Made by a program: the position numbers and the translations under genes
Source: a virus
Virus record (IMG/VR): IMGVR_UViG_3300024346_000242
Location: 1-35,802 of that record
Reading direction: 5' to 3' (one strand)
DNA length: 35,802 bases
Notes under the pieces: generated by a model
Database searches by the model: none
What the model saw: only the letters and a program-made list of their open reading frames with translations
What the model was told of the DNA's origin: nothing
Shown here: piece after piece, positions 1,029 to 35,802 of the stretch
How positions within the stretch are numbered: the stretch's first letter is position 1
Layout of the letters: the number at the start of each line of letters is the position of its first letter

Positions 1029-1485
1029 CACTTTTTGAAATATATTTTTCAACTTCAATATTACACTTGGTCAAAAAGTCAGTGCCAAGTGTATCACGAT
1101 ATGACTCTCTGTAGTAAACTTTCCTCACACCTGCGCCATAAATGAGTTTAGCGCAATTGATGCAAGGAGCATGAGTGCAGAATAAATCGGCACCATTGCC
1201 TGATTCGCCATCACGTGCAAGTTTAAGAATAGCATTAGCTTCTGCATGAATAACCTCATCTTTCGTTTTTGTTCTGAACTCAACAATATTACCACAGTCG
1301 TCTAGTACATGACCAATTTCTTCTTCACATACATTGGTCCAACCAGCTGGCATACCATTGTAACCAATTGAGATGATACGATTGTCTTTTACAACAACAG
1401 CACCAACCTTCAATCTTTTTGCACTGGACAACTCTGCGAATCTCTCCGCAGTGTCCATGAATGCATCAACCCACTTTTGTTTCAT
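1009..1485 (-). CDS. cd: dCMP deaminase
   Basis: A zinc-dependent deoxycytidylate deaminase that converts dCMP to dUMP, the substrate of thymidylate synthase. The 158-aa protein shows the catalytic zinc motif HAE at residues 80-82 and PCINC at 107-111 (Cys108 and Cys111 as ligands), in the order typical of the ComE/dCMP deaminase family. T4 carries the same function in gene cd; this protein is shorter than the T4 enzyme. It is the last gene of its transcription unit and starts inside the end of the 2OG oxygenase gene (20-bp overlap). With ThyX and NrdA/B in the same window it forms a dTTP supply route. Confidence 0.93.
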   Translation of the reverse strand: MKQKWVDAFMDTAERFAELSSAKRLKVGAVVVKDNRIISIGYNGMPAGWTNVCEEEIGHVLDDCGNIVEFRTKTKDEVIHAEANAILKLARDGESGNGADLFCTHAPCINCAKLIYGAGVRKVYYRESYRDTLGTDFLTKCNIEVEKYISKSVDLQVV

Positions 1486-2170
1486 TTTTACTTTTTTTTA
1501 TTTGATACTTAGAATTAACTTCATCTTTAAATTTCCCTGTGCCACCTTTCTCATGAGAATACATGTGGTTTAGAAAATTATCAGACTCTGTTTTCATAGA
1601 AGGTGGAATATTCATTAAAAAACAATTTGTGCTATATCTACTACCAGATAGAATCGGACTAACTTCATGTACCCAAAAGAAATCAGCAGGAAATATTAAA
1701 CCATCTCCAACACCCAGAGCAACTTTATGTTTTCCATTCCAAAATTTAAAGTCGCCACCAGTATATCCATCATTTAAATTAAAAGTGCAGCTACCGTATA
1801 CATGTGTATGATGATCTGTATGTGGATGTATTTTATTTCCAACATCATATCGTAATAATCTATGCATATGACTATACAGCATACTATCTCGTAAAGCTAT
1901 ATGGAACATACCCATATCTTCAAGATAATCCATATATTCATTTATGATCTGTTCAGTTTTTTTATGAGAAAGATTAAATGCTTCAGATCCATATTGTAAC
2001 TTAACACGTTTAAATGTAGAGTATGTGTCTATCCCAGAAGTAGCTTCTAGGCAATGCTCTAATTCAATCGTAGACTCTAATTTTTTGTGTTCATCAATTA
2101 AAAACTCACATTCTTCTTTTGTAAAGAACTGGTGTTTATGATAAATTAGCTGTGTTAAATTTATAGTCAT
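1466..2170 (-). CDS. 2OG-Fe(II) oxygenase, prolyl-4-hydroxylase-like
   Basis: A 2-oxoglutarate and iron dependent oxygenase of 234 aa. The facial triad is readable: His117-x-Asp119 and distal His168 (WVHEV), followed by Arg178, the expected 2-oxoglutarate ligand, in SGSRYS. The spacing fits the P4H-like double-stranded beta-helix fold. The substrate cannot be told from the sequence. It follows the flavin-dependent halogenase by 13 nt and overlaps the dCMP deaminase gene, so it is cotranscribed with both. Similar oxygenases occur in cyanophages, sometimes near halogenases (recalled, not checked). It is distinct from the TET/JBP-like fragment at the right edge. Confidence 0.85.
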   Translation of the reverse strand: MTINLTQLIYHKHQFFTKEECEFLIDEHKKLESTIELEHCLEATSGIDTYSTFKRVKLQYGSEAFNLSHKKTEQIINEYMDYLEDMGMFHIALRDSMLYSHMHRLLRYDVGNKIHPHTDHHTHVYGSCTFNLNDGYTGGDFKFWNGKHKVALGVGDGLIFPADFFWVHEVSPILSGSRYSTNCFLMNIPPSMKTESDNFLNHMYSHEKGGTGKFKDEVNSKYQIKKSKNETKVG

Positions 2171-2183
2171 TTATTATTCTCTG

Positions 2184-3683
2184 TTACTGTGTGCAAAAAT
2201 TCAGAAAGTCTTTGTGAGACATGCAAGTCGTGGAAACATTTTTTTGATTGATTAACAATGCATTTGTAATCATAGCAATATCATCACTACTATACTGCTC
2301 TATATTGTGTATAAATTCATTAGCATTAAGTAAATTTAAACCAGATGCAACTTGAATCCAGCTTTTTGGTGGGAATAAAATGTCACTAAAACTAATAGTA
2401 GAATTTGGATTTACATTCAATAATTCTAGAGTTTCTCGCACACTATCACGCATTTTATTTTTCACTCTAAATTCTTTCCAGAAATCAGAATCATTTCTAT
2501 TTGTTAGGTAGTGTAAATATAAAAAGTTAACAACTTCTTCATTTTTATCTTCACAGTATTTGTTAAATTTATTAGCAAATGTAATATTACCGTAATTATT
2601 TACACCATTTGAATTTAAGAATTCATTCAAATTAGTGTAACTAACCCAAATAGAAGTTGCTTCTAATGGCTCAACAAAACTTTGAGATAAACCCACCGCC
2701 ATACAGTTTTTAACTAAAGTAGATTTAAAGGAACCTGCTTCAAATTTAAAAGTTCTCGGGCTATTCAATGAACAACCGAAATATTCTTCAACTTCTTTTA
2801 GTGCATCTTCTTTGGTGATATACGAAGAATCAAAAACATATCCACATCCATATCTTCCTTGAACTGGAATTTTCCACACCCAACCATATTTCATGGCAAT
2901 AGACTCAGTTACTGGAGACACATTATTGTCATGCTCTATAAAGAATGGAAGTGCAGTATCCATGGGAAGACTGTCATTGTATGAAACCCATGGAGTACCA
3001 AAATGATCACCCACGATTAATCGAGCAAATCCAGAGCAATCAAAAATAAAATCACATGAAACTTCTTTTCCATTTTCCAAAGAAAGAGCTATAATATTTC
3101 CAGAGTCATCGTTTTGAAATTTATTAACCTTACCTTCTACTCGATAAATACCTCGAGATTCAGAGACTGCTCTTAAGTGCTTGGCAAGCAAAGTCGCATC
3201 AAAATGTAGTCCATAGCTTCCATGTCGGTCAAACATCATTCCTTCATTATTGATGTATGTGTTAATATTATTTTTAAACGATAGACAAACTTTATTTACA
3301 TAAGAAAGTTTCGCAGCAAAACTTAAGTCACTTAAATTTCTGTCATTATGAATATGATTTAATGGAATTATGTTATCACCGAAAAACTCAGTTAATCCTG
3401 GTTCAGAATTAAAGCTATGAAAATAGCTATTACCATCATTATTCCAGTTTACAAAATTAATACCTAACTTAACAGTACCACGACAGTGACGAATAATATC
3501 ACCAACTCCAACACCAATACTATCCAGCATATCAAGAAATTGAGTAGTAGTTCCCTCACCAGCACCAAGAATTCCAATCTCATCACTTTCGACGACAGTG
3601 ATACTTGCATTTGGATATTTAACTTTTGTTAATAACGCTGTCATCCATCCAGCAGTGCCGCCACCAAGAACTACCAATTCCAT
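2184..3683 (-). CDS. Flavin-dependent tryptophan-type halogenase
   Basis: A 499-aa enzyme of the PrnA/RebH family, which uses FADH2, oxygen and halide to halogenate aromatic substrates. Visible signatures: FAD-binding GGGTAGW at residues 7-13; the lysine expected to carry the haloamine, Lys72 in TVKLGINFVNW; the halogenase motif WVWKIP at 268-273; and a PLEAT motif with Glu341, where PrnA-like enzymes have an active-site glutamate. All key residues are present, so it looks active. A cyanophage relative, VirX1, has been reported to halogenate (iodinate) a range of substrates, so tryptophan need not be the natural one. A good ribosome site (AGAGG) precedes the ATG. No flavin reductase is visible in the window; host FADH2 is presumably used. 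Confidence 0.92.
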   Translation of the reverse strand: MELVVLGGGTAGWMTALLTKVKYPNASITVVESDEIGILGAGEGTTTQFLDMLDSIGVGVGDIIRHCRGTVKLGINFVNWNNDGNSYFHSFNSEPGLTEFFGDNIIPLNHIHNDRNLSDLSFAAKLSYVNKVCLSFKNNINTYINNEGMMFDRHGSYGLHFDATLLAKHLRAVSESRGIYRVEGKVNKFQNDDSGNIIALSLENGKEVSCDFIFDCSGFARLIVGDHFGTPWVSYNDSLPMDTALPFFIEHDNNVSPVTESIAMKYGWVWKIPVQGRYGCGYVFDSSYITKEDALKEVEEYFGCSLNSPRTFKFEAGSFKSTLVKNCMAVGLSQSFVEPLEATSIWVSYTNLNEFLNSNGVNNYGNITFANKFNKYCEDKNEEVVNFLYLHYLTNRNDSDFWKEFRVKNKMRDSVRETLELLNVNPNSTISFSDILFPPKSWIQVASGLNLLNANEFIHNIEQYSSDDIAMITNALLINQKNVSTTCMSHKDFLNFCTQ

Positions 3684-3711: not shown

Positions 3712-4179
3712 TTAAGGGTTTTCTGTAGATTCGGCTCCACTCGGAGCCTTTAAGTTTTTTGCTTTCTTTTCCTTTGCAACAGGTGCAGGAATAAATCCAG
3801 CTTCAGCAACTAACTTATGTGTAATTTTTGGATACATTTTAGTTAGCTTCTGATCTTTAATTGCTAGTACCAATTCAGCTTCTGATGGATGTATACTCTC
3901 CAGCAACTGCACAAACAAAGTTTCTTTACGTAGTGGTTTTAAATCAGTACGACAGAAGATATAAAGTTTACGTGTTTCTTGATACAGATTCGCAGGTGTC
4001 ATACCAATCGGTGCTGCATCTTTCTTGAATGGTGGATCACCTTCAGGTAACGCAAACTTCTTTTCTTCCAAGAATGCATGTTCAAAGATTAAACGTAAAG
4101 CACCATTGCCCTTATACTGATCAATCTTTTTAGGATCCGTATTGATTTCCTGTAGAATTTCAGTGATATATTTCGCCAT
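3712..4179 (-). CDS. Conserved phage protein, DUF6433-like
   Basis: A 155-aa protein starting MAKYITEILQEINTD, with a Lys/Pro/Ala-rich, probably disordered C-terminal tail (about residues 132-155). It resembles the DUF6433 proteins of T4-like aquatic phages; their function is not known to me. There are no membrane segments or catalytic motifs. It lies 9 nt downstream of RNase H, which suggests an early or replication-period role. Confidence 0.7.
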   Translation of the reverse strand: MAKYITEILQEINTDPKKIDQYKGNGALRLIFEHAFLEEKKFALPEGDPPFKKDAAPIGMTPANLYQETRKLYIFCRTDLKPLRKETLFVQLLESIHPSEAELVLAIKDQKLTKMYPKITHKLVAEAGFIPAPVAKEKKAKNLKAPSGAESTENP

Positions 4180-4188
4180 GTTTTGTCC

Positions 4189-5082
4189 TTAAAAGTCATC
4201 AAGTTCATCCAACAGCAAACGACAACGATTCTCGATCAAATAATTCATGACCGACATCTTGTCGCCAGTTGGCTTGTTATTTAGATATGCATCAACAATA
4301 GACTGTGCCACATCTTCTGGGATAAATTCAAAGTCAATCAGTTGTAGATTACGATGCCAGTTGCGACGCTCATCATCATTACGGCATGCGTTAAAACCTT
4401 TTTCAAGAAAGTCATCGAGTCGCTGCGAACTAATGCGTTTTTGGCGCACACCTTCTTGTAAGAAGATATCGTCTGGTGACAAGATGTTTGGAATACCATC
4501 ATCACCTGCTTTTACTACATGTGTGATAAACTTCTCATGCAACTCTCGCTGGGTCGCTTTGATCTGTTTCTTTTGCATTGGCGAGTACTGCGAAACATTA
4601 CCCCACTTTTGCAACTGAATAAAGTCACCATCAGATGAAAGAATCAAAACCTTTTGTGGATCTTCCATCAATCCCTGTTGAACGAATCCATTCGTTTGAG
4701 ACCACTTAGCCATAACAGCAATGACGTCATCTGCTTCAGCACGATCGATGTGGATAACTTTCCATGGAAAATGCTTGGAGATATCATTACGCATCTCGGA
4801 TAGCGTATCAAAGATTAGAGTCCAATCCAATTCAGAAGCATCACGTGCTTTCTTACGACCAGCTTTGTAGTATTGGAATACATCTCTGCGCCAGTACTTA
4901 CGACCATCGCAACAGATGATTAACTCGCCATATTCTTTACCATACTTTTTCTTGTATGACTTGATTGTTGATAGGGTTACATGGCGAATAAGGTTTTTAA
5001 CCTCAGACTCAGTACCTTTCAACTCTCTCTGGAATGTCAAGATGGCAGATAGTGCCACCTGACTATAATCAACTAAAATCAT
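4189..5082 (-). CDS. rnh: RNase H, 5'-3' exonuclease (T4 Rnh-like)
   Basis: A 297-aa FEN-1/5'-nuclease family protein that in T4 removes RNA primers and adjacent DNA from lagging-strand fragments. The metal-binding acidic residues appear in order: Asp5 (ILVDYSQ), Asp59 (CCDGRKYWRR), the Glu116/Asp118/Asp119 cluster (AEADDV), and Asp151/Asp153 (SSDGDF). Length matches T4 RNase H (about 305 aa). The start overlaps the stop of the upstream gene by 1 nt. With the gp61-type primase it represents the phage lagging-strand machinery; polymerase, clamp and helicase are outside the window. Confidence 0.92.
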   Translation of the reverse strand: MILVDYSQVALSAILTFQRELKGTESEVKNLIRHVTLSTIKSYKKKYGKEYGELIICCDGRKYWRRDVFQYYKAGRKKARDASELDWTLIFDTLSEMRNDISKHFPWKVIHIDRAEADDVIAVMAKWSQTNGFVQQGLMEDPQKVLILSSDGDFIQLQKWGNVSQYSPMQKKQIKATQRELHEKFITHVVKAGDDGIPNILSPDDIFLQEGVRQKRISSQRLDDFLEKGFNACRNDDERRNWHRNLQLIDFEFIPEDVAQSIVDAYLNNKPTGDKMSVMNYLIENRCRLLLDELDDF

Positions 5083-6212
5083 TAAAATGCTCCAAGGATA
5101 ATTGTTTCTTCGTTAATACGACCATTTGGTACAGCTGACTTTGTAGTCAGTGTCTTCATTTTAGCATTCAATGGACGTTTGCCGATTGTTAACCCTTTGA
5201 AGAAATCTGCTGGTTTACGCAGAGTAAATTGTTTAGATTCAGTCACTGAGAATCCAAGAATCGTAGTGCCTTTGACAGCCAATGCACCATTCTCGGCTTT
5301 GTAAACACTAATACGACGATACTTGGTATTGTATACCCATACCTCTGTTGAGTTGATAATACTTTCTGGTTTTGCAGACTTGAGATTCAACTCAGCAAAC
5401 TCTTTAAGATACTTCATACGTGCCACTTGCACAGAGGCAGGTTTCTCTTTACGCTTACGTGGTGCACGATTAGCCTTGGCAGTTTGCACTTGCTGATTGC
5501 AGTCAGAGATAATGCCTTCAACAAACTCGGCAAACTTCTTCAGTTCTCGTTTGGTAAAGTGTGAGTAACCTTCAACGAGTTGCTCATCTGTTCCTTCGAT
5601 AGCCCCACGCAATTCTTCGGCAGTGGCGACGTACATCTCACCAATTCTTTTTGCAATAGGTGCTGCGACGAGATTCGCAAGAAGATAGTTTTTTGTAGAG
5701 AAATCATTTTTCTTATTGATCATAAAGTCGTCAATGGCACCATCAATTTCAGATGCCAATTCACGTGCTTTTTCTTCCATACGTTGTTGGATTGAAATTA
5801 CATTAGAAGGTGCAGCTGCTGCCAAAGCATCGGCTGTTTTCTTGTCTAGTTTGTCTTGGGATTTTTGACGAGAACCAACTTGTTCTTTCAATTTAGCAAT
5901 GCGTTCATTGAAGTAGTTGGCTTCTTTTTCTTCAAGTTCAGAACCACCATCCATTAGACGAGCAAGAATGCCAGCATAGCGGAAGTGATACTCATCAACC
6001 TTTAGCAACTCAACAGCCAATTTCTTGTCTGTCTTAGCCATGTGGCTGATCAGCCATTTCTTTTTATCTTTATCATCATGATTGGCATTGTAGTAGTTCA
6101 ATGCCATAATCAAATCACGCATGTAGTTGTTAGGGTTGAGTTGACACTCAGCACCCTTCATCATGCGATCGACTTTTTCAATCAGTTGTTTACGTTTTGC
6201 AGTAGTAGCCAT
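5082..6212 (-). CDS. Conserved phage protein of unknown function (376 aa)
   Basis: The frame is open from 6251, but the promoter -10 at 6240-6245 lies inside that extension. The first usable start is ATG at 6212, with a strong GGAGG (6223-6227) 10 nt upstream. The product is basic and largely helical, with Lys/Arg-rich stretches (around RAPRKRKEKP) and a C-terminal region of beta character. Similar proteins sit next to RNase H in T4-like aquatic phages, but I know no function. As first gene of an early-type unit it may act in replication or host takeover. Confidence 0.75.
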   Translation of the reverse strand: MATTAKRKQLIEKVDRMMKGAECQLNPNNYMRDLIMALNYYNANHDDKDKKKWLISHMAKTDKKLAVELLKVDEYHFRYAGILARLMDGGSELEEKEANYFNERIAKLKEQVGSRQKSQDKLDKKTADALAAAAPSNVISIQQRMEEKARELASEIDGAIDDFMINKKNDFSTKNYLLANLVAAPIAKRIGEMYVATAEELRGAIEGTDEQLVEGYSHFTKRELKKFAEFVEGIISDCNQQVQTAKANRAPRKRKEKPASVQVARMKYLKEFAELNLKSAKPESIINSTEVWVYNTKYRRISVYKAENGALAVKGTTILGFSVTESKQFTLRKPADFFKGLTIGKRPLNAKMKTLTTKSAVPNGRINEETIILGAF

Positions 6213-6239
6213 AGGTTTAGAACCTCCATAGTATAACTT

Positions 6240-6268
6240 ATTATACCGCAAAACGGAATAAAAGTCAA
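6240..6268 (-). promoter_or_regulatory. Strong sigma70-like promoter of the RNase H to dCMP deaminase unit
   Basis: TTGACT (6263-6268) and TATAAT (6240-6245) on the minus strand with a 17-bp spacer. It follows the hairpin at 6281-6304 immediately and leads to a 5' leader of about 20 nt with GGAGG ahead of ATG 6212. Confidence 0.9.
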
Positions 6269-6280
6269 CAACAATTTGGA

Positions 6281-6304
6281 AAGACCCTCAAACATGAGGG
6301 TCTT
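6281..6304 (-). terminator. Terminator hairpin after the DsbA-like gene
   Basis: AAGACCCTCA (6281-6290) and TGAGGGTCTT (6295-6304) form a 10-bp stem with a 4-nt loop that touches the stop codon of the gene. The U tract on the minus strand is short (CTTTCC). It separates the upstream unit from the promoter at 6240-6268. Confidence 0.75.
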
Positions 6305-6564
6305 TATTTCGGTACTACCTTGGTGAGATCTTCGTAGAGATCCACGAATTCTTCATGTTCCTGATTAACCTGCGTCAAGTTCTGTTTGTGGAAAGTGACT
6401 GCAATTTTCTTGACAGTTTTCCTAGGAATCTGGTAGGTATCAGAAATCTCTTTAACGATCTCTTTGATTAGATCACGTTCTGCTTCAGCACGCAACATTG
6501 AATTGCTGATCTCACGAACAGCATCAAAAATCTTTTTCTTATCTTCAGGGGATGAAATGCTCAT
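6304..6564 (-). CDS. dsbA: DsbA-like double-stranded DNA-binding protein
   Basis: An 86-aa charged, helical protein. Its C-terminal half (TFHKQNLTQ followed by acidic EHEEFVDLYEDL) resembles T4 DsbA, an 89-aa double-stranded DNA-binding protein linked to late transcription. The middle (SDTYQIPRKTVKKI) looks like a helix-turn-helix type segment. It ends a run of seven small genes and is followed by a terminator. Identification rests on remembered similarity over a short protein, so it is moderate. Confidence 0.7.
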   Translation of the reverse strand: MSISSPEDKKKIFDAVREISNSMLRAEAERDLIKEIVKEISDTYQIPRKTVKKIAVTFHKQNLTQVNQEHEEFVDLYEDLTKVVPK

Positions 6565-6565
6565 A

Positions 6566-6760
6566 TTATTTCTTAAAGGTTACAAAATGATTGCCACTAA
6601 CAATACCACTTAACAATACTGCAGCACACCATGTATCAAATGCAAATGGAATAGCCAGAGCAGGGAATAATGTGTTCAATGACCAAATTGCCGCAAACGG
6701 CATTAATACAATTAGTACTAAAGCCACAGCAACAAACATCAAAATTTTTGTAGTAGTCAT
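6566..6760 (-). CDS. Small membrane protein, two TM segments
   Basis: 64 aa with two hydrophobic segments (about residues 6-30 and 33-56) and a short basic tail (FKK). GAGGTGA lies 5 nt upstream of the ATG. Proteins of this type are common in T4-like aquatic phages; the function is unknown. The start overlaps the end of the upstream DUF2693-like gene by 4 nt, implying coupled translation. Confidence 0.75.
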   Translation of the reverse strand: MTTTKILMFVAVALVLIVLMPFAAIWSLNTLFPALAIPFAFDTWCAAVLLSGIVSGNHFVTFKK

Positions 6761-7053
6761 AGTGTCACCTCAACTTTAATTACTGAGTCCCAACGGAAAG
6801 ATCTCCAAGCACTAATTTCGGTATCAAAAACTCGGCATGCTGCGTCAGTAAACGTGCTTGCTGTTCCTTCTGTTTTTGGCTGGAATTCTTTTGGGATATT
6901 ACTTTCTGCAAGGGTACAACGCATTGCACGTTGTGCTCCGTCTTTTTTGGTAAAAGTAATGCACAGATCTTTTGATGATTCATCTCTTAGTAGTCCTAAC
7001 GTCCAAGTTTTAAAGTCTTCAAATTCTTTGTCTGTTTTAAACACTGTTTGCAT
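6757..7053 (-). CDS. DUF2693-like small phage protein
   Basis: 98 aa from ATG 7053; a TTG two codons upstream is less likely, and GTGAG lies about 9 nt upstream of the ATG. The second half carries the pattern seen in DUF2693 proteins: MRCTLAESNIPKEF and then VFDTEISAWRSFRWDSVI. The family is predicted to have a small SH3-like beta-barrel; its role in phages is unknown. It starts inside the 3' end of the preceding gene and overlaps the next, as expected for a compact early unit. Confidence 0.75.
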   Translation of the reverse strand: MQTVFKTDKEFEDFKTWTLGLLRDESSKDLCITFTKKDGAQRAMRCTLAESNIPKEFQPKTEGTASTFTDAACRVFDTEISAWRSFRWDSVIKVEVTL

Positions 7054-7270
7054 TTTCAAATCTCACTTTCAAATCATTAATAATCGGTTGAAAAAAATCT
7101 TCAAATTCTCTATTCGAGAAAAACATCTGATTGGTACTGTCAACTATCACCTTACCATTCTCATCAGTTAACTTCTTTGTTATACTATATTCAACTACAT
7201 CATAGTCATGATCTTTAATAACAAGTGTAGTTAGTAGACCATTTCTACTTAGTTCGTAAGTACTGTTCAT
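7037..7270 (-). CDS. Small protein of unknown function (77 aa)
   Basis: Two adjacent ATG codons (7273 and 7270) follow AAGGAG (7277-7282). The second, with 6-nt spacing, is the better start. The product has an N-terminal beta-rich part and a C-terminal NREFEDFFQPIINDLKVRF helix. I do not recognise a family. Its start lies within the 3' end of the 50-aa gene at 7245-7397 and its end overlaps the DUF2693-like gene. Confidence 0.65.
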   Translation of the reverse strand: MNSTYELSRNGLLTTLVIKDHDYDVVEYSITKKLTDENGKVIVDSTNQMFFSNREFEDFFQPIINDLKVRFENANSV

Positions 7271-7397
7271 CATGTGCTCCTTTGTGCTTAGCTTTGCGAG
7301 TGTACTGAACCTTGCTCTCAACTACACGCATTCGGTACTTGGGAGTTCGAAGATCTTTAGCAACAAGATCTCTGGGTTTCAGTTTTATATTATACAT
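7245..7397 (-). CDS. Small basic protein, DUF7230-like (50 aa)
   Basis: Missed by a 60-aa length filter, but well supported. ATG at 7397 follows AAGGAAATATC, the frame is open for 50 codons to TAG at 7245-7247, and the product contains KDLRTPKYRMRVV then a Lys/Arg-rich YTRKAKHKG. That pattern matches the very small DUF7230-type proteins of T4-like phages. It overlaps the next gene by 26 nt in another frame. The high positive charge suggests nucleic acid binding, which is inference. Confidence 0.75.
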   Translation of the reverse strand: MYNIKLKPRDLVAKDLRTPKYRMRVVESKVQYTRKAKHKGAHDEQYLRTK

Positions 7398-7406
7398 GAT
7401 ATTTCC

Positions 7407-7628
7407 TTACAAGGCAAATTTCTTTAATACTTCTTTTGCATCTTTAAAGTCACCCATTACATTATCCATCTCTGCGAGAATAATCATCTGTTGCAAACTA
7501 TCTGCAAGTTGTTGGTCTTGTTCATCCAATAGATCATACCATTCTGCGTACTCTTCCTCTGAGTCCAAAGACCACATATGGTCTAGCATCTCCACCTGAT
7601 ACTCAGTTAGGTTTTCTATTTGAATCAT
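7407..7628 (-). CDS. Small acidic phage protein (73 aa)
   Basis: A strongly acidic, probably helical protein (MIQIENLTEY, then SLDSEEEYAEWYDLLDEQDQQ). Acidic small proteins of this kind are common in the early regions of T4-like phages, where some bind host enzymes; that role is a guess. Its start overlaps the stop of the MazG-like gene by 4 nt. Confidence 0.7.
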   Translation of the reverse strand: MIQIENLTEYQVEMLDHMWSLDSEEEYAEWYDLLDEQDQQLADSLQQMIILAEMDNVMGDFKDAKEVLKKFAL

Positions 7629-7924
7629 ACCATTTCCTTAATGTTAGACCACTTGGCTAACTTTAATCGCTTTGCTTGTGATGCATGTGCAACTTCACCA
7701 GCATCGATGATTCCTTCTTCGACCATCATGTCAATCATACAAAGTAAGTCACCGATTTCTTCTTCGAGTCGTTCACGATTAGATACATCATTATGTAAAC
7801 CATCAACTCCGAATCGGAATACTTTACTTATTGCTTGTGCAACTTCAGCGCATTCTTCTTGACAGATAAGCATGATTTCTTCTTGTCTTTCTGTCTTCAT
7901 TCTTTTTACTGCAAATTTATTCAT
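7625..7924 (-). CDS. MazG-like nucleotide pyrophosphohydrolase
   Basis: 99 aa from ATG 7924, which overlaps the stop of the preceding gene (ATGAATAA). A longer frame to 8134 exists, but its N-terminal part lies wholly over the preceding gene. It carries the MazG/NTP-PPase metal motif: EECAEVAQA (residues 23-31), then ERLEEEIGDLLCMID (51-65). The family hydrolyses nucleoside triphosphates to monophosphates. Possible roles are cleansing of unusual dNTPs or lowering host alarmone pools; both are known proposals for phage MazG proteins. Confidence 0.8.
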   Translation of the reverse strand: MNKFAVKRMKTERQEEIMLICQEECAEVAQAISKVFRFGVDGLHNDVSNRERLEEEIGDLLCMIDMMVEEGIIDAGEVAHASQAKRLKLAKWSNIKEMV

Positions 7925-8147
7925 AATCTTTCTTCCCACCAAATTCTTCATTGTAATCATAACCTGCATTGTACTCAGCGACTTCTTCGTCACACAATTC
8001 AGAAATACGTCCACCGTATCCAGTACCTTCTGGATACCAATGTGGATCACGTTCACGTGAATACCAAGAGTCAGCACCGCCCCGATCAAATAAAGATCCA
8101 TGACGCTTACGATCAAATTGCGGAAGCATCTCAAGTGTTACAGTCAT
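7917..8147 (-). CDS. Conserved small phage protein (76 aa)
   Basis: ATG 8147 is chosen because AAAGG lies 7 nt upstream and because the upstream GTG (8177) lies at the predicted transcription start. The product has a typical pattern of widespread phage proteins: RGGADSWYSRERDPHWYPEG, then a segment ending in EVAEYNAGYDYNEEFG. Such proteins recur in many tailed phages with no known function. It is the first gene of the unit driven by the promoter at 8182-8210. Confidence 0.75.
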   Translation of the reverse strand: MTVTLEMLPQFDRKRHGSLFDRGGADSWYSRERDPHWYPEGTGYGGRISELCDEEVAEYNAGYDYNEEFGGKKDYE

Positions 8148-28933: not shown

Positions 28934-29983
28934 CTAACCTGTTGTTTTAGTGGAGGTTTTAATCATCTTCATTCCAATTCTATTTCCAACTGGGTTAGGT
29001 GTGCTTGATGGTGAATGAAATTTAAAGTCTGCGTCCGAAAATGTATGTATACTATAAGTCAGCATATTTGATTTATAGTCCAAATATATTTGATTAACAG
29101 TCAATGTTCTTGCAGCCATGGTTAGTATGTCTGTTGCTCCGTTTTTCGTATCATTTAACCAGCCCATAACTTCACTGGTAATGGGGAAATGTAAAATACC
29201 CCACTTCTTATAACGAGAGCCTGCAGTTCCTGCGAATACAGATTCCATTTTGTCCATTCCACCAATTTCAAATTTAGCAGCTGTGAACAGTGGCTTGAAT
29301 TGTTTCATGGCGTTGGCGAAACTACCAATATTATCACTAGCCTTTATAAGACTATCCTGTGGTGGTATCCCTACTCCAGTATATCCAGTTTTTAAAGAAG
29401 GCTTCGATACTATGGCAACTAATGCCGTATATCCAGGTAATTTTAAAAACTTTGCTACTTCAAGAACACCACCATATAATGTTCCCTTGCTAATCATCTG
29501 TAAAACTTTTAATGCTTTTTTATTCTTAGCACTAAGTGTATTTTCATCCATATCATTGAATGCCTTCTCAACAGCAGTAATAGCTGGTGCACCACCCGCA
29601 CCTGCTTTTGCAGAAACCTTTTCATCAATACCATCTCTTACTAGATAATAATCAACTAGACGTTGGTTTTCATCTGTAGGGAATTTAGCATGAGTATATC
29701 CCTGTCCAGAATTCAACATGTATAGAGAACCACTCACTTCTCCAAAATCAGAAGTAATCACTCCCATATCCTGTGCAGTTAATCCAGGAAAGTTTGCTGC
29801 GAAACTTTTAGAACCAGATACTGATTGTTTGATAATATATTCGCATGCGTCTTTAGCAGCAGGGGTGAGATCTAATGTCTTAATACGTTTAGACACAGCT
29901 GCTTGTATTTGAGCAGAAGTCAATGGGTCCATTGTATTTAAATTAAACTTAGACGGAGTTAGTAGTTTTTTCTTTATCGTCAT
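28934..29983 (-). CDS. Unknown protein at the end of the modification unit (349 aa)
   Basis: ATG 29983 is preferred because GAGG lies 5 nt upstream; an ATG directly before it is too close. The protein is mixed alpha/beta and contains TSDFGEVSGSLYMLNSGQGY near residue 85 and a Lys-rich part near VSKPSLKTGY. I do not recognise a family; the acidic DFGE element with later lysines could fit a nuclease-like fold, but that is weak. It is the last gene of the unit that also holds the kinase and transferase of the hypermodification island. Confidence 0.55.
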   Translation of the reverse strand: MTIKKKLLTPSKFNLNTMDPLTSAQIQAAVSKRIKTLDLTPAAKDACEYIIKQSVSGSKSFAANFPGLTAQDMGVITSDFGEVSGSLYMLNSGQGYTHAKFPTDENQRLVDYYLVRDGIDEKVSAKAGAGGAPAITAVEKAFNDMDENTLSAKNKKALKVLQMISKGTLYGGVLEVAKFLKLPGYTALVAIVSKPSLKTGYTGVGIPPQDSLIKASDNIGSFANAMKQFKPLFTAAKFEIGGMDKMESVFAGTAGSRYKKWGILHFPITSEVMGWLNDTKNGATDILTMAARTLTVNQIYLDYKSNMLTYSIHTFSDADFKFHSPSSTPNPVGNRIGMKMIKTSTKTTG

Positions 29984-30013
29984 CATATCCTCAACATGTA
30001 ATTATTATACTAT

Positions 30014-30727
30014 TTATTTGCGCTTGGAGGCACGAATAACTCTATCATATTTACGATCCCACTTAATTATTTGTTGTATAATCTTGTGTGTAGCTACGTT
30101 ATTTTTATAGTCGTAATTAAAAGTCTTTAGGAAGTAGTGCAGAGTTTTGGAATCATGATGCTTGGTGGAACGACTAATTAGTTGTTCTGTGCTATATTTT
30201 GGTTTGTAGAATTTATAGTCTAGCAGAACACAATGCGCATATGCTTGAATCTCATCGAACTCGGATAGATACTTGCGCTCTTTATCTACCTTAGCATGAC
30301 CAACTTTTTTATAAGGAACAACATAATTGCTCCACTCATCGTATCTTCTATCGTACTGCATGAAGTGTATCAACTCATGCATGTGTACTTGTATCACTTT
30401 ATACTTAAACTGTTTCCAAGAAGAATCAGTAAAGTTAAAGTTATTGTAATAGTGAGTGTAGATTTGTATGACGCATTGGCGATCTTCGGGAGAGTATTCT
30501 CCACCAACACATACGTAGTTGTCAAACATCTTTGCGTTTGACTTTTCTTTAAACCATTCTATCCTAGTGCGCCACTTTTTAAAGTAGTTAGCAAGACCGA
30601 CCGAATCATTGCGATATCGATCTAGATCTTTCCACACTTTTGCTGGAATGTACTTAGCCCTAAATGGACGCTCATGAAAATTGAGTAGATCCATCCAGTC
30701 GAAGGTTGCTGTTTCTAGGAAATACAT
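30014..30727 (-). CDS. HExxH metallopeptidase-like protein
   Basis: 237 aa. HELIH at residues 117-121 is a zinc-binding HExxH motif inside a helix (VHMHELIHFMQYD), and YLSEFDEIQAYAH (about 153-165) provides Glu156 or Glu159 as a third ligand about 35-40 residues later, as in gluzincin-type peptidases. There is no signal peptide, so it would act in the cytoplasm or inside the virion. The substrate is unknown. It lies 24 nt downstream of the kinase gene in the same unit. Confidence 0.65.
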   Translation of the reverse strand: MYFLETATFDWMDLLNFHERPFRAKYIPAKVWKDLDRYRNDSVGLANYFKKWRTRIEWFKEKSNAKMFDNYVCVGGEYSPEDRQCVIQIYTHYYNNFNFTDSSWKQFKYKVIQVHMHELIHFMQYDRRYDEWSNYVVPYKKVGHAKVDKERKYLSEFDEIQAYAHCVLLDYKFYKPKYSTEQLISRSTKHHDSKTLHYFLKTFNYDYKNNVATHKIIQQIIKWDRKYDRVIRASKRK

Positions 30728-30750
30728 TCATATCCCAGAAAACCCTTGCA

Positions 30751-31353
30751 TTAGACTAAGTGTTGATTCATAAATGCAAGAACTTTCCCTTGCTCCTCTA
30801 AGTTGGTGTTTACAAACTCAGTAATATAGGGCATCAACTCGAAGTTAGAGAGGATGTTACTATATTTAGTCGCCCTACCTTTTAGGAATGTCTCAGACTG
30901 ATCAGATCCACGATCTACATAACGCTGTCTAAGAATAGCATCTGGAACCTTTAGATAGATGACTTGGAGATCTATGTTCTCAAGATCCATTGAGAACTCT
31001 AGAAACGACTGATTAAAGATTCGGTCGCCTTCGAACAGGATATTTGAGGTGGTTTCTTTGGCAAACTCTTGAGCCACTGGTTGGACTGCCATGGACAAAC
31101 GATCTGTGCCAGCAAAGGTTTCACCATCCTCATACTTACCTAGGATGTATAGATCAAGTGCCTTACAATAGAGTGCAGGTAGCATCTTCTTAGGCTCCAC
31201 CCTTTCCCACTCATGTGCTTCCATAAACTTACGGAACAGTGTAGTCTTACCAGTTCCTGGCTGGCCACCCACTGCCAGCAGTTTACGCTTCTTTACATTA
31301 CCTTTAATTAGTTGGACAGAAATAACATCTCCAACTCCAAACTTATCATGCAT
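30751..31353 (-). CDS. P-loop kinase, 5-hydroxymethyluridine DNA kinase-like
   Basis: 200 aa from ATG 31353, whose ATG overlaps the preceding stop (ATGCATGA) and which has GAGGAAG upstream. Walker A is GGQPGTGKTT at residues 29-38. LGKYEDGETFAGTDRLSMAV and ILFEGDRIFNQSFL resemble the phage 5-hmdU DNA kinase (HMUDK) family, which phosphorylates hydroxymethyluracil in DNA to make a leaving group. RQRYVDRGSDQSETFLKGR looks like the arginine-rich lid. The assignment draws on remembered family features and on its transferase neighbour; a generic nucleotide kinase is the alternative. Confidence 0.75.
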   Translation of the reverse strand: MHDKFGVGDVISVQLIKGNVKKRKLLAVGGQPGTGKTTLFRKFMEAHEWERVEPKKMLPALYCKALDLYILGKYEDGETFAGTDRLSMAVQPVAQEFAKETTSNILFEGDRIFNQSFLEFSMDLENIDLQVIYLKVPDAILRQRYVDRGSDQSETFLKGRATKYSNILSNFELMPYITEFVNTNLEEQGKVLAFMNQHLV

Positions 31354-31780
31354 AACGTGCTTCCTCAATCAATTGAATCAATTCTTCCTTAGTGAAAACA
31401 TAAACTCTGCCATAGAAGTGATGCGTGTCATCATCGATTAGTTTCTTCTTAGTGAATGTCATTTTATTAATGACTTCTGTGGTAGCTTTCTTAGCAATAT
31501 TTAATTTAATATGATCAGCATAGTCTGGTTGAACTTCTTTCAGTTTCAGCATTTCCATTTCTGAAATTTTATGATCAACTACAATAAGATTCATTTCTCG
31601 TCTATCAAGAAGTTCTTGTGCTGAAGTTGTAATAGTAAGTGTTGATGTAGCCGTAGAATTAGTATAACTAGTATAATTAGAACTTCCTATCATAATTCCA
31701 CCAGTAATACTATTAGAAGTAGGTGTAATCATATCTTGTGGTAGTGTAGTAACAGTACTACCCATATTCATATCGCTCAT
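31346..31780 (-). CDS. Conserved T4-like phage protein (144 aa)
   Basis: A Ser/Thr/Asn/Met-rich low-complexity N-terminus (about residues 1-50) precedes a conserved C-terminal half: VVDHKISEMEMLKLKEVQPD, then VINKMTFTKKK and FYGRVYVFTKEELIQLIEEA. The C-terminal pattern is common in T4-like phages, function unknown. GGAG lies 8 nt before the ATG. It overlaps the transferase gene upstream and the kinase gene downstream, so all three are cotranslated; a role as partner of the modification enzymes is possible. Confidence 0.7.
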   Translation of the reverse strand: MSDMNMGSTVTTLPQDMITPTSNSITGGIMIGSSNYTSYTNSTATSTLTITTSAQELLDRREMNLIVVDHKISEMEMLKLKEVQPDYADHIKLNIAKKATTEVINKMTFTKKKLIDDDTHHFYGRVYVFTKEELIQLIEEARYA

Positions 31781-32796
31781 GTAAATATCTCCAATCCTAA
31801 AGGTTGCGGTTGCTCATCATCAAACATCCAGTATAAGTTTTCTATTCTACCTGATCTAATAAAATTAGGAAACTTTTCTTTATCAATACCATGTTCATGA
31901 TCTAAACGCAATTCAAGAGTTTCGTTTCTTGCTTGCCATAAAACATTCCAATCAATGCCATACCAACCATCTGATTCGCATTGTTGGATTTCTTCACATT
32001 GACGATCTAAGTAGTAACCCAAATAGCGTCCATGTTTCTCTCGGAAGATCTTCTTGAAAGAACACAAGCAAGTTTCCATTGTAAAGAAGTCTACTTGACT
32101 TTCCACTTCTGGGAATCTATCTCGTACTTCTTCAAGAATACTTCTGCCATGCGCCTCAAGTCGTTGATACTCCAATGTAGTGAGTTTTCGATCCACATCG
32201 TCTTCTTGTCCAAGGGCATAAAGTAATCCATTACGATGAGAACGAGAGCCATCATAATCGTCCAACATAAGACTAGTGGGCTCAATACGAACACCAGCAG
32301 TGTGCTTGAGATGTTGCATATAGAACCAAGTAGAATAACGCCCAAACTTATGCAGGCTTCCCTTAAGTATCTCCCACAATCGTGTAAAGTTTTGTTCTTC
32401 TGTATCTCCATAATAACTCTGTAATTTCTCACGCTGTGATTTATCGCCAATGAATTCTTGATAAGAAGCAAACATCGTAGGTAAGTGCCCTTTGTTCCAC
32501 TTTGTATCAGTTTGATAACGAAGTCGTTTATAGTTGGCAGTGTTCCATTGGGTAATACGATCTACTGTTGCTAACTCAAAGTCTGGGAATTCATTCATGA
32601 GAACCCATGCAGTTGGAAGGTAGTAAGTATTACCGTAAAGCCATGCTAGCCATAAACGCTGTTCATCATTGTGTTCGTATCGTTTGTTTAGATAGTTAGT
32701 CGCCCATACCGCTGGATCACAGTCATCATATTTCATTGACCATGCATACCAGCGGATGAATGCTTCACGTCGATTTTCTTTTAGTCTATAATCCAT
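31777..32796 (-). CDS. Amino acid:DNA transferase / thymine pyrophosphorylase-like protein
   Basis: 339 aa, rich in Trp and Tyr. It shows a pattern I associate with phage base-hypermodification enzymes (ADDT and aGPT-PPlase type): IRWYAWSMKYDDCDPAVW, EQRLWLAWLYGNTYYLPTAW, then NYKRLRYQTDTKWNKGHLP. In that scheme the enzyme replaces the phosphate on phosphorylated hydroxymethyl-dU in DNA with an amino acid or polyamine. The kinase for the preceding step lies two genes downstream, with overlapping genes throughout. Exact clade and donor cannot be read from the sequence. ATG 32796 overlaps the previous stop by 1 nt. Confidence 0.75.
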   Translation of the reverse strand: MDYRLKENRREAFIRWYAWSMKYDDCDPAVWATNYLNKRYEHNDEQRLWLAWLYGNTYYLPTAWVLMNEFPDFELATVDRITQWNTANYKRLRYQTDTKWNKGHLPTMFASYQEFIGDKSQREKLQSYYGDTEEQNFTRLWEILKGSLHKFGRYSTWFYMQHLKHTAGVRIEPTSLMLDDYDGSRSHRNGLLYALGQEDDVDRKLTTLEYQRLEAHGRSILEEVRDRFPEVESQVDFFTMETCLCSFKKIFREKHGRYLGYYLDRQCEEIQQCESDGWYGIDWNVLWQARNETLELRLDHEHGIDKEKFPNFIRSGRIENLYWMFDDEQPQPLGLEIFT

Positions 32797-33374
32797 TATT
32801 TACAGAATAATGTAACATCATCACATACATAGCTACCATATTTTTTAAAATAATTGTTTTTCATAGTGCCATCAAAATTGAACTCGAAATTCAAATTACC
32901 ACCTTTGTCTGTAAGTTCATTCCACTGAGGATAAGGAATACGTACAAGTAGAATTCTACTAAGTGTTTCATCTTCTGGATTGTAAACAGTGATTGCTATT
33001 CGCAGTGTTCCAACTTTATTGCGAAGTGACTTACCAGAAAGACAGCAGTTTAGCATTCTAGACTGATAATGCGAGACTGTTCCATCTTTTTTTGTATGAT
33101 AGGAGTTGGTGACTTTGATTCGAGTTGACATATACTTAGCATCACTCTTGTCAGTAAAATCCATGCCAGTTTCGTTGGATCTTTTTTTCTTGGGATTAAT
33201 TAGAGTAATAAAATTTTCTAACACATTGGATAAAGATAAGTCTCCACCCGCAGTCATTTGCAGAAAAACTTTTTTACTCATTCCAGAGTATTTGTTTTTA
33301 TAACCATGTTCCCAGAAGTATTCAGCTGCGATACGTTCAGTAATAGCAGATGCTTTAGTATGATTAGAAGCCAT
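32796..33374 (-). CDS. PD-(D/E)XK nuclease-like protein (192 aa)
   Basis: GMDFTDKSDAKY holds Asp72, then Asp78-Ala-Lys80, resembling the D...(D/E)xK metal site of restriction-type nucleases, and Glu13 in an N-terminal helix could complete it. The rest is beta-rich (RIAITVYNP, ILLVRIPYP) as expected for that fold. It could be a nuclease that spares or targets DNA according to modification; a non-catalytic structural role is possible. It is the first gene after the promoter at 33406-33434; the leader of about 25 nt has no clear Shine-Dalgarno sequence. Confidence 0.5.
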   Translation of the reverse strand: MASNHTKASAITERIAAEYFWEHGYKNKYSGMSKKVFLQMTAGGDLSLSNVLENFITLINPKKKRSNETGMDFTDKSDAKYMSTRIKVTNSYHTKKDGTVSHYQSRMLNCCLSGKSLRNKVGTLRIAITVYNPEDETLSRILLVRIPYPQWNELTDKGGNLNFEFNFDGTMKNNYFKKYGSYVCDDVTLFCK

Positions 33375-33405
33375 AATATATAAAAGATCAAGTTTCGATA
33401 AGACT

Positions 33406-33434
33406 ATTATACTACAAAAACGAATTTAAGTCAA
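33406..33434 (-). promoter_or_regulatory. Sigma70-like promoter inside the GNAT gene
   Basis: TTGACT (33429-33434) and TATAAT (33406-33411) on the minus strand with a 17-bp spacer. The -35 and spacer overlap the last codons and stop of the acetyltransferase gene, so the kinase/transferase unit can be expressed separately from the amidoligase unit. Confidence 0.87.
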
Positions 33435-33966
33435 CACTTTCTTGCATGATGTAGGACAGGGCTAGGCTTCCCTTTCGACCACTATAAAGTGCTTTTTGCA
33501 GAACTGGGTCTTTGTCGTCGTAAATGCCCTCTAGAATAGTATCGCCTGCAATCTTAAACATGCTTAGACTACATCCACTTTTTTGTTTACCCCAGAACTT
33601 GAACCCAATGCTTTCATAAAATGCAACAGCTTCTGGTTCTGCAGAAACTCTAAAGTAAACTGCACCAGCAAGTTTAACAACTTGATATGATGTTAGGGTT
33701 AATTCTTTGGCAACACCCCTACGACGATGTTTATTGAATGTGTGCAGCAATTGTAGGTTTGCCACTCTTGGATTAGTTTTTCCAAGAGTGGTAATAATTG
33801 CACCCATTAACTCGCCATTATTATTAAATGCACCATAACATTCATCCCACTGCTCTTGCATATCTGCTTTGGCTCTGAATGTCTTGGCGAAACCATCGGC
33901 TTTGTCGTCAGTGATAGCTGCGACAAATTCATCTCTGGAACATTTACGCAACTGCAAGGTATTCAC
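33412..33966 (-). CDS. GNAT-family N-acetyltransferase
   Basis: 184 aa from GTG 33966 (an ATG at 34023 would overlap the amidoligase gene by 80 nt). The GNAT core is visible: LQLLHTFNKHRRRGVAKELT with the acetyl-CoA binding R-x-x-G pattern, followed by VSAEPEAVAFYESIGFKFWG, the usual end of the fold. It transfers an acetyl group from acetyl-CoA to an amine; the substrate is unknown. Its place after an amidoligase and a glutamine amidotransferase makes a modified-base or peptide-like amine a reasonable candidate. Confidence 0.85.
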   Translation of the reverse strand: MNTLQLRKCSRDEFVAAITDDKADGFAKTFRAKADMQEQWDECYGAFNNNGELMGAIITTLGKTNPRVANLQLLHTFNKHRRRGVAKELTLTSYQVVKLAGAVYFRVSAEPEAVAFYESIGFKFWGKQKSGCSLSMFKIAGDTILEGIYDDKDPVLQKALYSGRKGSLALSYIMQESVDLNSFL

Positions 33967-34822
33967 GTTGTTTGTTACCACGCTCTTTATCCCACTTTGT
34001 GTTAATCCAACCAATATACTCATTGAGATCCCAAACGAATGGCGGGAACTTGTAGTTATCTGCTGCTAGAATTTCTTTAACACTTGGTCCATCGTTCAAT
34101 GCCGCATCAATAAACTTCTCTGCAAAACGGAACTGTGATTCAATCTCATCATGTTTGGTTGACGAACGGAAACAACGGAACTCGATTGTACCTGTGTGCT
34201 TCATACAGTAAGTATTGATGGCATAGCGGAATGGACGACCCATTGATACACCATCTTTGCCAGCAGCATGTAACTTGATAAAGTGGTCAAAGTCTGTTGC
34301 TAGATTGATGATATTGTCACACATATATTCTGGCATTTCTCGTCCGCCATCATACTTGAGATACATCTTAGCACCCTTGGAACCTTTCATCTGTCCAGTC
34401 TCATAGAAACCATAACATGACTCAATGGTATCTTTTTGGTTGGCTTTGATATAAGCAACAAGTTTCTTCAATGAAGCTACGTCATCTTTAAGTCCTGGAA
34501 CGAACACATGAAGGTGACCATGATTGACGCATGAAGCAGAAGGTTGATTGCCATTATCAACAAAGAACTGATGTAGTTCCATTACACGATCTACTTGTTC
34601 TTTCCAAGTAGCAGTTGGCTTGGTGTTAATCTCTCCACCCATCCATGGTTCAATGCCAAGAGGATCACAAGCAATATACTTGACTGGTTCATGAATGTTA
34701 ACAATATCAGTTTCAGCAAATTCCCATTTACCAAGATGCTCAGGTGGAGTTAAACGACGATCTACATCACCCCACTCAATTTCATAACCCCATGTAAATT
34801 TATCAGATGCGTACTGTTTCAT
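33944..34822 (-). CDS. Amidoligase-like (COOH-NH2 ligase) protein
   Basis: 292 aa. Features of glutamine-synthetase-fold amidoligases: FTWGYEIEWGD near the N-terminus (metal-binding Glu), GGEINTKPT (second Glu), HGHLHVFV (about residues 101-108), and NTYCMKHTGTIEFRCFRSS (C-terminal Glu and Arg). These enzymes join a carboxylate to an amine using ATP. The start overlaps the glutamine amidotransferase stop by 20 nt. Published analyses of this family describe phage operons with a glutamine amidotransferase and acetyltransferase, as here. The product is unknown. Confidence 0.8.
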   Translation of the reverse strand: MKQYASDKFTWGYEIEWGDVDRRLTPPEHLGKWEFAETDIVNIHEPVKYIACDPLGIEPWMGGEINTKPTATWKEQVDRVMELHQFFVDNGNQPSASCVNHGHLHVFVPGLKDDVASLKKLVAYIKANQKDTIESCYGFYETGQMKGSKGAKMYLKYDGGREMPEYMCDNIINLATDFDHFIKLHAAGKDGVSMGRPFRYAINTYCMKHTGTIEFRCFRSSTKHDEIESQFRFAEKFIDAALNDGPSVKEILAADNYKFPPFVWDLNEYIGWINTKWDKERGNKQREYLAVA

Positions 34823-35504
34823 ATTCTAGTCCTTGCAAATCAGCATTATTAGTATATACTTTCTGGATCGTAACGGCTAAGTCTTGATCAATATTCATAT
34901 ATGTATTCATTGGAACTTCTACAGTCATATCTAATCCTGCACGTTTGGCAACGTCTTCAGTAGAAGTAATTATATACCCATTAGATAAAGAAGTAAAATA
35001 AATTGGTCGTTTTCCATTACGATAAAATCTTAACCTTTTACAAAACCACAATTCACAAACTGCCAAAGAAGATTCAACCCATGTTGTGATTGGACATTTA
35101 TCATCTTCTATTGTATGAAGAAGTAATTCACTGTCGTTTTTGGTAACACAGTCGTAACCATAAAGATCTTTCCACTTCTCTGGCAACTCTTGAGTAATCA
35201 CACCATTGTGGACTATCGACAAAGTATCATTATTAAATGGCTGATTAAATTCAAGATCACTAGTACTATAACGACAGTGCCCAACCATGTATAGATTCCC
35301 ATCTTCATTAAGATACTTTGGGAAATCAAAAGGAAATTGATCAGCAGCAACTGGCAACTTCTCAGTATGGATTTGATATTCCTTAACATACGATAATCCT
35401 GTAGCATGCATTCCTCTAATTTTAGATTCAAGGAATACATGTTTGATGGTATCAAAATCTTCTTGAGAAGGTTTCTTAATAATTACACCAATGATACCAC
35501 ACAT
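34803..35504 (-). CDS. Class II glutamine amidotransferase
   Basis: 233 aa, a single-domain N-terminal-nucleophile amidohydrolase. Cys2 follows the initiator Met (MCGIIGV); RGMHATG (30-36), GHCRYST (75-81), HNG (99-101) and NDSE (123-126) are the glutamine-binding and oxyanion elements of the GlmS/PurF type. There is no synthase domain, so the ammonia must be passed to a separate enzyme; the amidoligase encoded next, with overlapping genes, is the obvious partner. Its ATG overlaps the stop of the upstream gene (TGATG). Confidence 0.9.
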   Translation of the reverse strand: MCGIIGVIIKKPSQEDFDTIKHVFLESKIRGMHATGLSYVKEYQIHTEKLPVAADQFPFDFPKYLNEDGNLYMVGHCRYSTSDLEFNQPFNNDTLSIVHNGVITQELPEKWKDLYGYDCVTKNDSELLLHTIEDDKCPITTWVESSLAVCELWFCKRLRFYRNGKRPIYFTSLSNGYIITSTEDVAKRAGLDMTVEVPMNTYMNIDQDLAVTIQKVYTNNADLQGLEYETVRI

Positions 35505-35802
35505 CAGAAGAATCCTTCAAGTGAAGATGCTTTCTCTGCTTCTGGATGATACTTTATTAGAGTTTCACGACCAAGTTTCTTTTCACAGTATTCATACCAC
35601 TCATCAGATACCCACATAGATGCTGAAACGCCATTCCAAAGATGACGCCACTCTGGATGTTCTTTGTTTAGTCTACGTGATTCGACAAAGTTGAAACGAC
35701 ATTCTTCATATTCTTTACTACCCAACTCAAGCATTTTCTCACGGAAGTAAACTACCAAAGAGATACGCTCAGATCCTTCTTCGCAAACGATAGGTGTATT
35801 GC
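35504..35802 (-). CDS. TET/JBP-like DNA base dioxygenase, C-terminal fragment (cut by window edge)
   Basis: The frame is open to the window edge (first whole codon at 35800), so the visible 98 residues are the C-terminus only. They begin NTPIVCEEGSERISLVVYFR. This closely resembles the end of the catalytic fold of TET/JBP 2OG-Fe(II) dioxygenases, where the distal His is followed by a TTP-like turn and then the 2OG-binding Arg in RISLVxY. If correct, the enzyme oxidises the methyl group of thymine (or 5-methylcytosine) in DNA. The HxD part and distal His lie outside. A TTG at 35758 could start a short ORF, but continuity with the edge makes truncation more likely. Confidence 0.72.
   Translation of the reverse strand, partial: NTPIVCEEGSERISLVVYFREKMLELGSKEYEECRFNFVESRRLNKEHPEWRHLWNGVSASMWVSDEWYEYCEKKLGRETLIKYHPEAEKASSLEGFF

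Follow-up and report, generated by a model that had tools for sequence, protein, structure and literature searches.

Does the minus-strand gene cluster at positions 28934-35802 of the IMG/VR virus record IMGVR_UViG_3300024346_000242 encode a pathway that rebuilds thymines in DNA and, if so, which base would be its product? The window, i.e. the whole stretch of DNA that we analysed, is the complete record, a linear fragment of 35,802 bases, and its source is a T4-like, Kyanoviridae-related virus of bacteria from water. A sequence-only reading had proposed that within 7 kb, in two adjoining transcription units, thymine is converted to 5-hydroxymethyluracil (5-hmU), then to 5-phosphomethyluracil and then to an amino acid adduct, which is finished by a "tailoring trio" of enzymes. 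The gene content stands largely as read, with the exception of a PD-(D/E)XK call and of the two transcription units, and the region is very probably a post-replicative thymidine hypermodification cassette, to judge, for its first three steps, from named families with characterised members. The genes that carry this assignment are, from the window edge downwards:

35504..35802, minus strand: C-terminal part (at least 98 aa) of a TET/JBP-type 2-oxoglutarate-Fe(II) (2OG-Fe(II)) dioxygenase, cut by the window edge (phrog_24024, 3.9e-31)
34803..35504, minus strand: core gene for a protein with a class II (N-terminal nucleophile, Ntn; Cys-2) glutamine amidotransferase (GATase) domain (PF13522, 7.5e-10)
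33944..34822, minus strand: accessory, swappable gene for an amidoligase of the glutamine-synthetase/COOH-NH2 ligase superfamily (Amidoligase_2, 0.0055, below the Pfam cut-off, plus fold match)
33412..34023, minus strand: GNAT acetyltransferase (PF13673, 3.4e-10; PF00583, 1.1e-5)
31777..32796, minus strand: amino acid:DNA transferase (ADDT, formerly aGPT-Pplase2; PF18724, 1e-21)
30751..31353, minus strand: P-loop kinase, candidate 5-hydroxymethyldeoxyuridine (5-hmdU) DNA kinase (PF18751 Ploopntkinase3, 1.5e-8)

All cassette genes lie on the minus strand and are nearly gapless: from the TET gene down to 28934 only one strand is used, neighbouring genes overlap or are separated by at most 37 bases, and overlaps join the TET, GATase, amidoligase and GNAT genes (80 bases between the last two). 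Such clustering is far above chance expectation. Promoter- and terminator-like sites occur in the region about as often as in shuffled sequence, and a division into two adjoining transcription units finds no support in this layout.

The AlphaFold model of the ADDT (pLDDT 91) has as its three best matches in the PDB structures of the 5-phosphomethyl-2'-deoxyuridine (5-PmdU) glycinyltransferase gp46/PUGT (8z2n, 8z2m; probability 1.00, TM 0.49-0.57, E 0.05-0.1), and the next fold matches include DNA glycosylases. At the sequence level gp51 of phage M6, which Pfam places among the ADDTs, is clearly related to 8z2m. In an alignment, the ADDTs of the window, M6 (gp51), Cr30 and Montesquieu have an E-x3-C-x2-K motif in common, and all except that of Montesquieu also possess an FG motif. 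A direct profile comparison of the window ADDT with M6 gp51 gave no match, though both belong to PF18724 and are connected through the fold search; searches of the PDB by sequence gave no significant match for either the ADDT or the kinase, and no ADDT relatives were found in bacterial genomes. The PF18724 match, the glycinyltransferase fold and the motifs together identify the protein as an amino acid:DNA transferase rather than a member of an unrelated family.

The start of the kinase gene, an ATG at 31353, is backed by the starts in relatives (the family search used 30751-31368). Gp54 of phage M6 matches PF18748, "5-hmdU DNA kinase", and a profile of 25 window-type kinases matches M6 gp54 with an E of 1e-8 and a probability of 95.6, including the GKYE-GETFAGTDRL region, which makes the protein a candidate for the HMUDK-like kinase first proposed.

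The first residues of the TET fragment, which was searched as 35504-35800, follow closely on the distal iron-binding His (HG|NTP). Near-identical contigs extend beyond the window edge and there encode a 433-aa protein that matches PF12851 Tet_JBP (4e-25); the full-length homologue in contig L006 (PF12851, 4e-25) is 99% identical to the window over the part they have in common. Following the gene past the edge in these contigs thus confirms the TET/JBP-like end seen at the window edge and places it in Tet_JBP, not in an unrelated family. The HxD, the distal H and an R are kept across 48 non-redundant homologues, and relatives in DLP6, Cr30, C48C1 and S-CBWM1 match Tet_JBP at 3e-17 to 8e-21. Their records call them "SNF2 DNA repair protein" or a hypothetical protein; the former label, attached to TET/JBP dioxygenases in KU682439, KF301602 and NC_048106, is apparently a name inherited from JBP2.

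With the TET/JBP enzyme the cassette contains a predicted source of 5-hmU, one of the features by which thymidine hypermodification is recognised. A ThyA-type hydroxymethylase (PF00303) was considered as another source and rejected: none was found in ten relatives, among which are three records of 165-171 kb, so TET acting on thymine within DNA appears to be the most plausible origin of hmU. Six of the ten, and the window too, carry ThyX. No C5-methyltransferase (PF00145) was found in 15 cassette-bearing contigs, namely these ten relatives and five further ones, so there would be no phage-made 5-methylcytosine (5mC) for TET to act upon. The same search detected PF00145 in the T4-like relative Melnitz, where a C5-methyltransferase, a TET, a 427-aa protein and a related kinase occur without an ADDT; this contrast supports thymine as the substrate.

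In the proposed pathway, the TET/JBP enzyme would hydroxylate some of the thymines in DNA at their methyl group, giving 5-hmU, the P-loop kinase would phosphorylate the hydroxyl to give 5-phosphomethyluracil, and the ADDT would put an amino acid, joined through its amine, in place of the phosphate; the incoming group might also be ammonia supplied by the GATase. The core of this order, as originally proposed, is supported by the families, the ADDT fold, the kinase profile and the absence of ThyA and C5-methyltransferase; the trio, as described below, does not behave as one unit.

Phosphorylation of 5-hmdU followed by substitution is known from phages M6, ViI and phi W-14 (PMC6449724). M6-type systems resemble what is proposed for the window: a P-loop kinase (in M6 a member of the 5-hmdU DNA kinase family, in the window a candidate), an ADDT, post-replicative substitution of phospho-hmdU, and tailoring enzymes. 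M6, however, has a ThyA-type hydroxymethylase and HMUDK_hel, with no TET annotated in the stretch consulted, whereas the relatives of the window phage have TET, GATase and amidoligase and lack ThyA and HMUDK_hel. Thymidine hypermodification of phages M6, PaMx11 and ViI is said to have been treated by Lee et al. in 2018 and 2022. In Rhodococcus phage Tonitrus, a TET/JBP-like protein, an aGPT-Pplase2 and a 5-hmU DNA kinase occur in one cluster, much as TET, ADDT and the candidate kinase do in the window, and have been described as a thymidine hypermodification system (PMC11955845). The combination of TET, ADDT and kinase is therefore not itself new, and what is left of the novelty claimed for it is the unusual tailoring. 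The five-gene system of Tonitrus further comprises a ParB-like and a hypothetical protein, and GATase, amidoligase and GNAT are not described in it (PMC11955845). Caulobacter phage Cr30 likewise possesses a TET (47% identical to that of the window), an ADDT (30%) and a kinase (40%), but differs in having a TET-associated glycosyltransferase-like gene and, according to tblastn, no relative of the GATase or amidoligase in its 24-kb cluster. We found no description of a GATase and an amidoligase in a TET-based thymine system in the literature searched, which did not include Iyer 2013, Lee 2018 and Lee 2022.

Are the additional enzymes what their sequences suggested? The GATase retains the MC, GHxRYSTSD, HNGVI and NDSE motifs across 53 non-redundant homologues, i.e. 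the Cys after Met and the Ntn motifs that characterise class II. The AlphaFold model of the amidoligase (pLDDT 87) has top fold matches that all belong to the glutamine-synthetase/glutamate-cysteine-ligase superfamily (glutathione synthetase/glutamate-cysteine ligase, YbdK, glutamine synthetase and PafA; best E 3e-3, probability 0.98). Thirty-two of its 33 homologues match Amidoligase_2 weakly, and residues E14, E16, H101, H103, H105, R199, E214 and R216, which make up acidic, His and EFR motifs, are invariant; a search of the PDB by sequence gave no significant match. The class II GATase, the amidoligase-like protein and the GNAT acetyltransferase of the sequence-only reading are thus all upheld.

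Among 50,697 phage records, relatives of the amidoligase were found only in Vibrio phage 2.275.O, with 7-deazaguanine genes and a gene for a GATase-like protein as neighbours, and in phage Simon (PQ683277, L168), where it is 27% identical and accompanied by an ADDT and, by eye, a P-loop kinase-like open reading frame (ORF). Since these relatives sit in other base-modification clusters, the amidoligase is independently tied to base modification. Simon differs from the window in having a ThyA-type enzyme, HMUDK_hel and, by eye, an FAD-dependent-like ORF, and a GATase was not detected in it; the record is unannotated, and what it contains is an M6-like thymidine hypermodification cluster with an amidoligase. 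A chemical parallel is offered by the carboxymethylcytosine systems, in which CmoX/CmoY perform ATP-dependent amide ligation on the carboxylate of a DNA base, and which include ligases predicted to be glutamine-dependent, some ligases having a glutaminase domain, and associated ParB proteins (PMC12783734). CmoY thus resembles the chemistry proposed for the window in forming an ATP-dependent amide bond on a base carboxylate, but CmoX/CmoY act on cytosine with a carboxymethyltransferase and an asparagine-synthetase-type ligase, and TET, kinase and ADDT are not described there (PMC12783734).

To see how these genes travel together, we scanned viral contigs with the ADDT (246 relatives) and the amidoligase (218), and used the best 80 of each; synteny was counted over 116 distinct contigs carrying an ADDT, of which those with 4.3 kb or more upstream were scored for TET and GATase and those with 2.6 kb or more downstream for the kinase. 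In this sample of mostly close relatives, none of the 59 contigs that reach far enough upstream lacks TET or GATase, and none of the 60 that reach far enough downstream lacks the kinase. Between GATase and ADDT lies either the amidoligase, usually with GNAT (56 contigs), or another GNAT-like gene (PF00583, 4e-4; 40 contigs), and no contig has both or neither. The trio therefore held in part only: the GATase occurs in every relative tested, and the amidoligase-GNAT pair is replaced in 40 of the 96 contigs. A distant relationship links the two GNAT types (E 8e-5, probability 61), and GNAT comes after the amidoligase in most relatives. Well-supported branches of the ADDT tree force at least three switches between the two arrangements. 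Other changes have occurred nearby. The TET gene is relocated yet still inside the cassette in L119, L123 and L124; a 434-aa protein, a protein that matches an HNH-like PHROG weakly and a 2OG-Fe(II) oxygenase have been swapped in next to the ADDT; and a radical SAM enzyme (L049:11020-12450, L070:11020-12450) or a tryptophan-halogenase-like enzyme (L012) stands between ADDT and kinase. The radical SAM insertion resembles the radical SAM enzyme of M6.

For the last step, the amidoligase and GATase might convert the carboxylate of the adduct to an amide or join a further amine to it, and GNAT might acetylate an amine. The product is probably an amidated or acylated aminomethyl-uracil adduct, and probably a DNA base so far undescribed; it would guard virion DNA against host nucleases or bacterial defences. 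We give slightly less than even weight to the more specific proposal that a core GATase and a swappable amidoligase in a TET-initiated pathway yield a thymine with an amide or peptide-like side chain (carboxamide, acyl-aminomethyl or amino-acyl) absent from characterised phages, and that phages trade the contents of the tailoring slots (amidoligase-GNAT, another GNAT, radical SAM, halogenase, 2OG oxygenase), diversifying the base.

The GATase is core and the amidoligase optional, and therefore the GATase may feed the ADDT, giving an aminomethyl base, or work with whichever tailoring enzyme is present. The first of these possibilities leads to a variant of the main reading, the strongest of the competing proposals, unlikely as we regard it, in which the ammonia goes to the ADDT and not to the amidoligase, the core product is 5-aminomethyl-deoxyuridine acetylated by GNAT, and in some phages the amidoligase attaches a further group, acyl or amino acid. 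In its favour, a GATase and a GNAT-fold protein occur in both cassette types, with the distant relationship of the two GNATs noted above. However, the nearest solved relative of the ADDT is a glycinyltransferase, characterised ADDTs are known to use amino acids, and no GATase-ADDT fusion was seen.

Much less probable is that TET, kinase and ADDT modify thymine while GATase, amidoligase and GNAT serve an unrelated small-molecule or peptide pathway in a shared operon. Two phages with the former set agree with such a split, namely Cr30, in whose 24-kb cluster no relative of the GATase or amidoligase was found, and Tonitrus, whose five-gene system is described without the latter set, and Iyer and colleagues reportedly placed class II GATases and amidoligases in metabolite and protein modification as well (2009). 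Against it stand the GATase found with TET and ADDT in 59 of 59 contigs, the overlaps that join TET, GATase, amidoligase and GNAT genes, and the amidoligase relatives in two other DNA-modification clusters. Cytosine hypermodification, in which TET would take 5mC to 5-hydroxymethylcytosine for phosphorylation and substitution, is the least probable. Melnitz does join a TET to a C5-methyltransferase and to a kinase that has 36% identity with that of the window, but no C5-methyltransferase was found in the window or the 15 cassette-bearing contigs, and the ADDT, missing from Melnitz, belongs to the 5-PmdU transferase family. In L185 (Melnitz-2), positions 4010-8090 carry the C5-methyltransferase, TET/JBP, 427-aa protein and kinase; this candidate cassette for cytosine hypermodification looks like a cytosine version of the window cassette; the paper on the Melnitz phage covers only the methylase.

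Several points weigh against thymidine hypermodification as the function of the cassette. Thymine as the TET substrate is deduced from the absence of genes in possibly incomplete records, host-made 5mC may serve TET, and only the C-terminus of TET lies within the window. The kinase is above threshold in Ploopntkinase3, with PF18748 not among the matches listed; related kinases occur in the cytosine-type cluster of Melnitz and in mycobacteriophages; and HMUDK_hel, the partner of the M6 kinase, was sought as a missing partner and is absent from the ten relatives and Cr30. The GATase may serve another step, since it is retained where the amidoligase is absent. Finally, all relatives are allied phages, and with a sample biased to close relatives the synteny is partly shared descent.

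The remaining genes of the region are the following:

32796..33374, minus strand: variable-slot protein without Pfam or PHROG match
31346..31780, minus strand: small partner protein, its gene overlapping the ADDT and kinase genes, with homologues in the corresponding position of many relatives
30014..30727, minus strand: conserved downstream protein with an HExxH (zincin-like) motif, MHExxH being kept across 26 non-redundant homologues

The slot at 32796-33374 holds unrelated genes or none in relatives, and the proposed PD-(D/E)XK nature of its protein was not borne out by the Pfam and PHROG searches. Another variable-slot protein, c2 (L122), has no Pfam, PHROG or phage match; its resemblance to GIY-YIG and ParB proteins is by eye only, and we do not claim it. 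The partner protein, found conserved as proposed, has no significant family match in Pfam or PHROG. Neither 30014-30727 nor 28934-29986 gave a significant family match or a recognisable modification enzyme, and the HExxH protein is possibly only co-transcribed with the cassette. The minus-strand stretch 28934-29986 is a hypervariable slot between the HExxH protein and a DUF6267 gene, in which contigs differ in content (c6, c7, c17, c18); some of the proteins there have, by eye, restriction-enzyme-like motifs. Elsewhere in the window, a tryptophan-halogenase-like protein (2184-3683, minus strand; PF04820, 1.5e-106) lies beside a 2OG-Fe(II) oxygenase (1466-2170, minus strand), and a relative of this halogenase-like protein is the enzyme found between ADDT and kinase in the L012 cassette.

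Most of the known thymidine hypermodifications come from phages in which hmU is made as a free nucleotide. In environmental viromes, T4-like phages of a widespread family appear instead to make hmU in DNA via TET/JBP, adding amide chemistry to it. If true, this would widen the set of DNA base chemistries, provide new DNA-labelling enzymes and improve the prediction of restriction-resistant phages; and because the tailoring genes are swapped at one position, their chemistry could be tested gene by gene.

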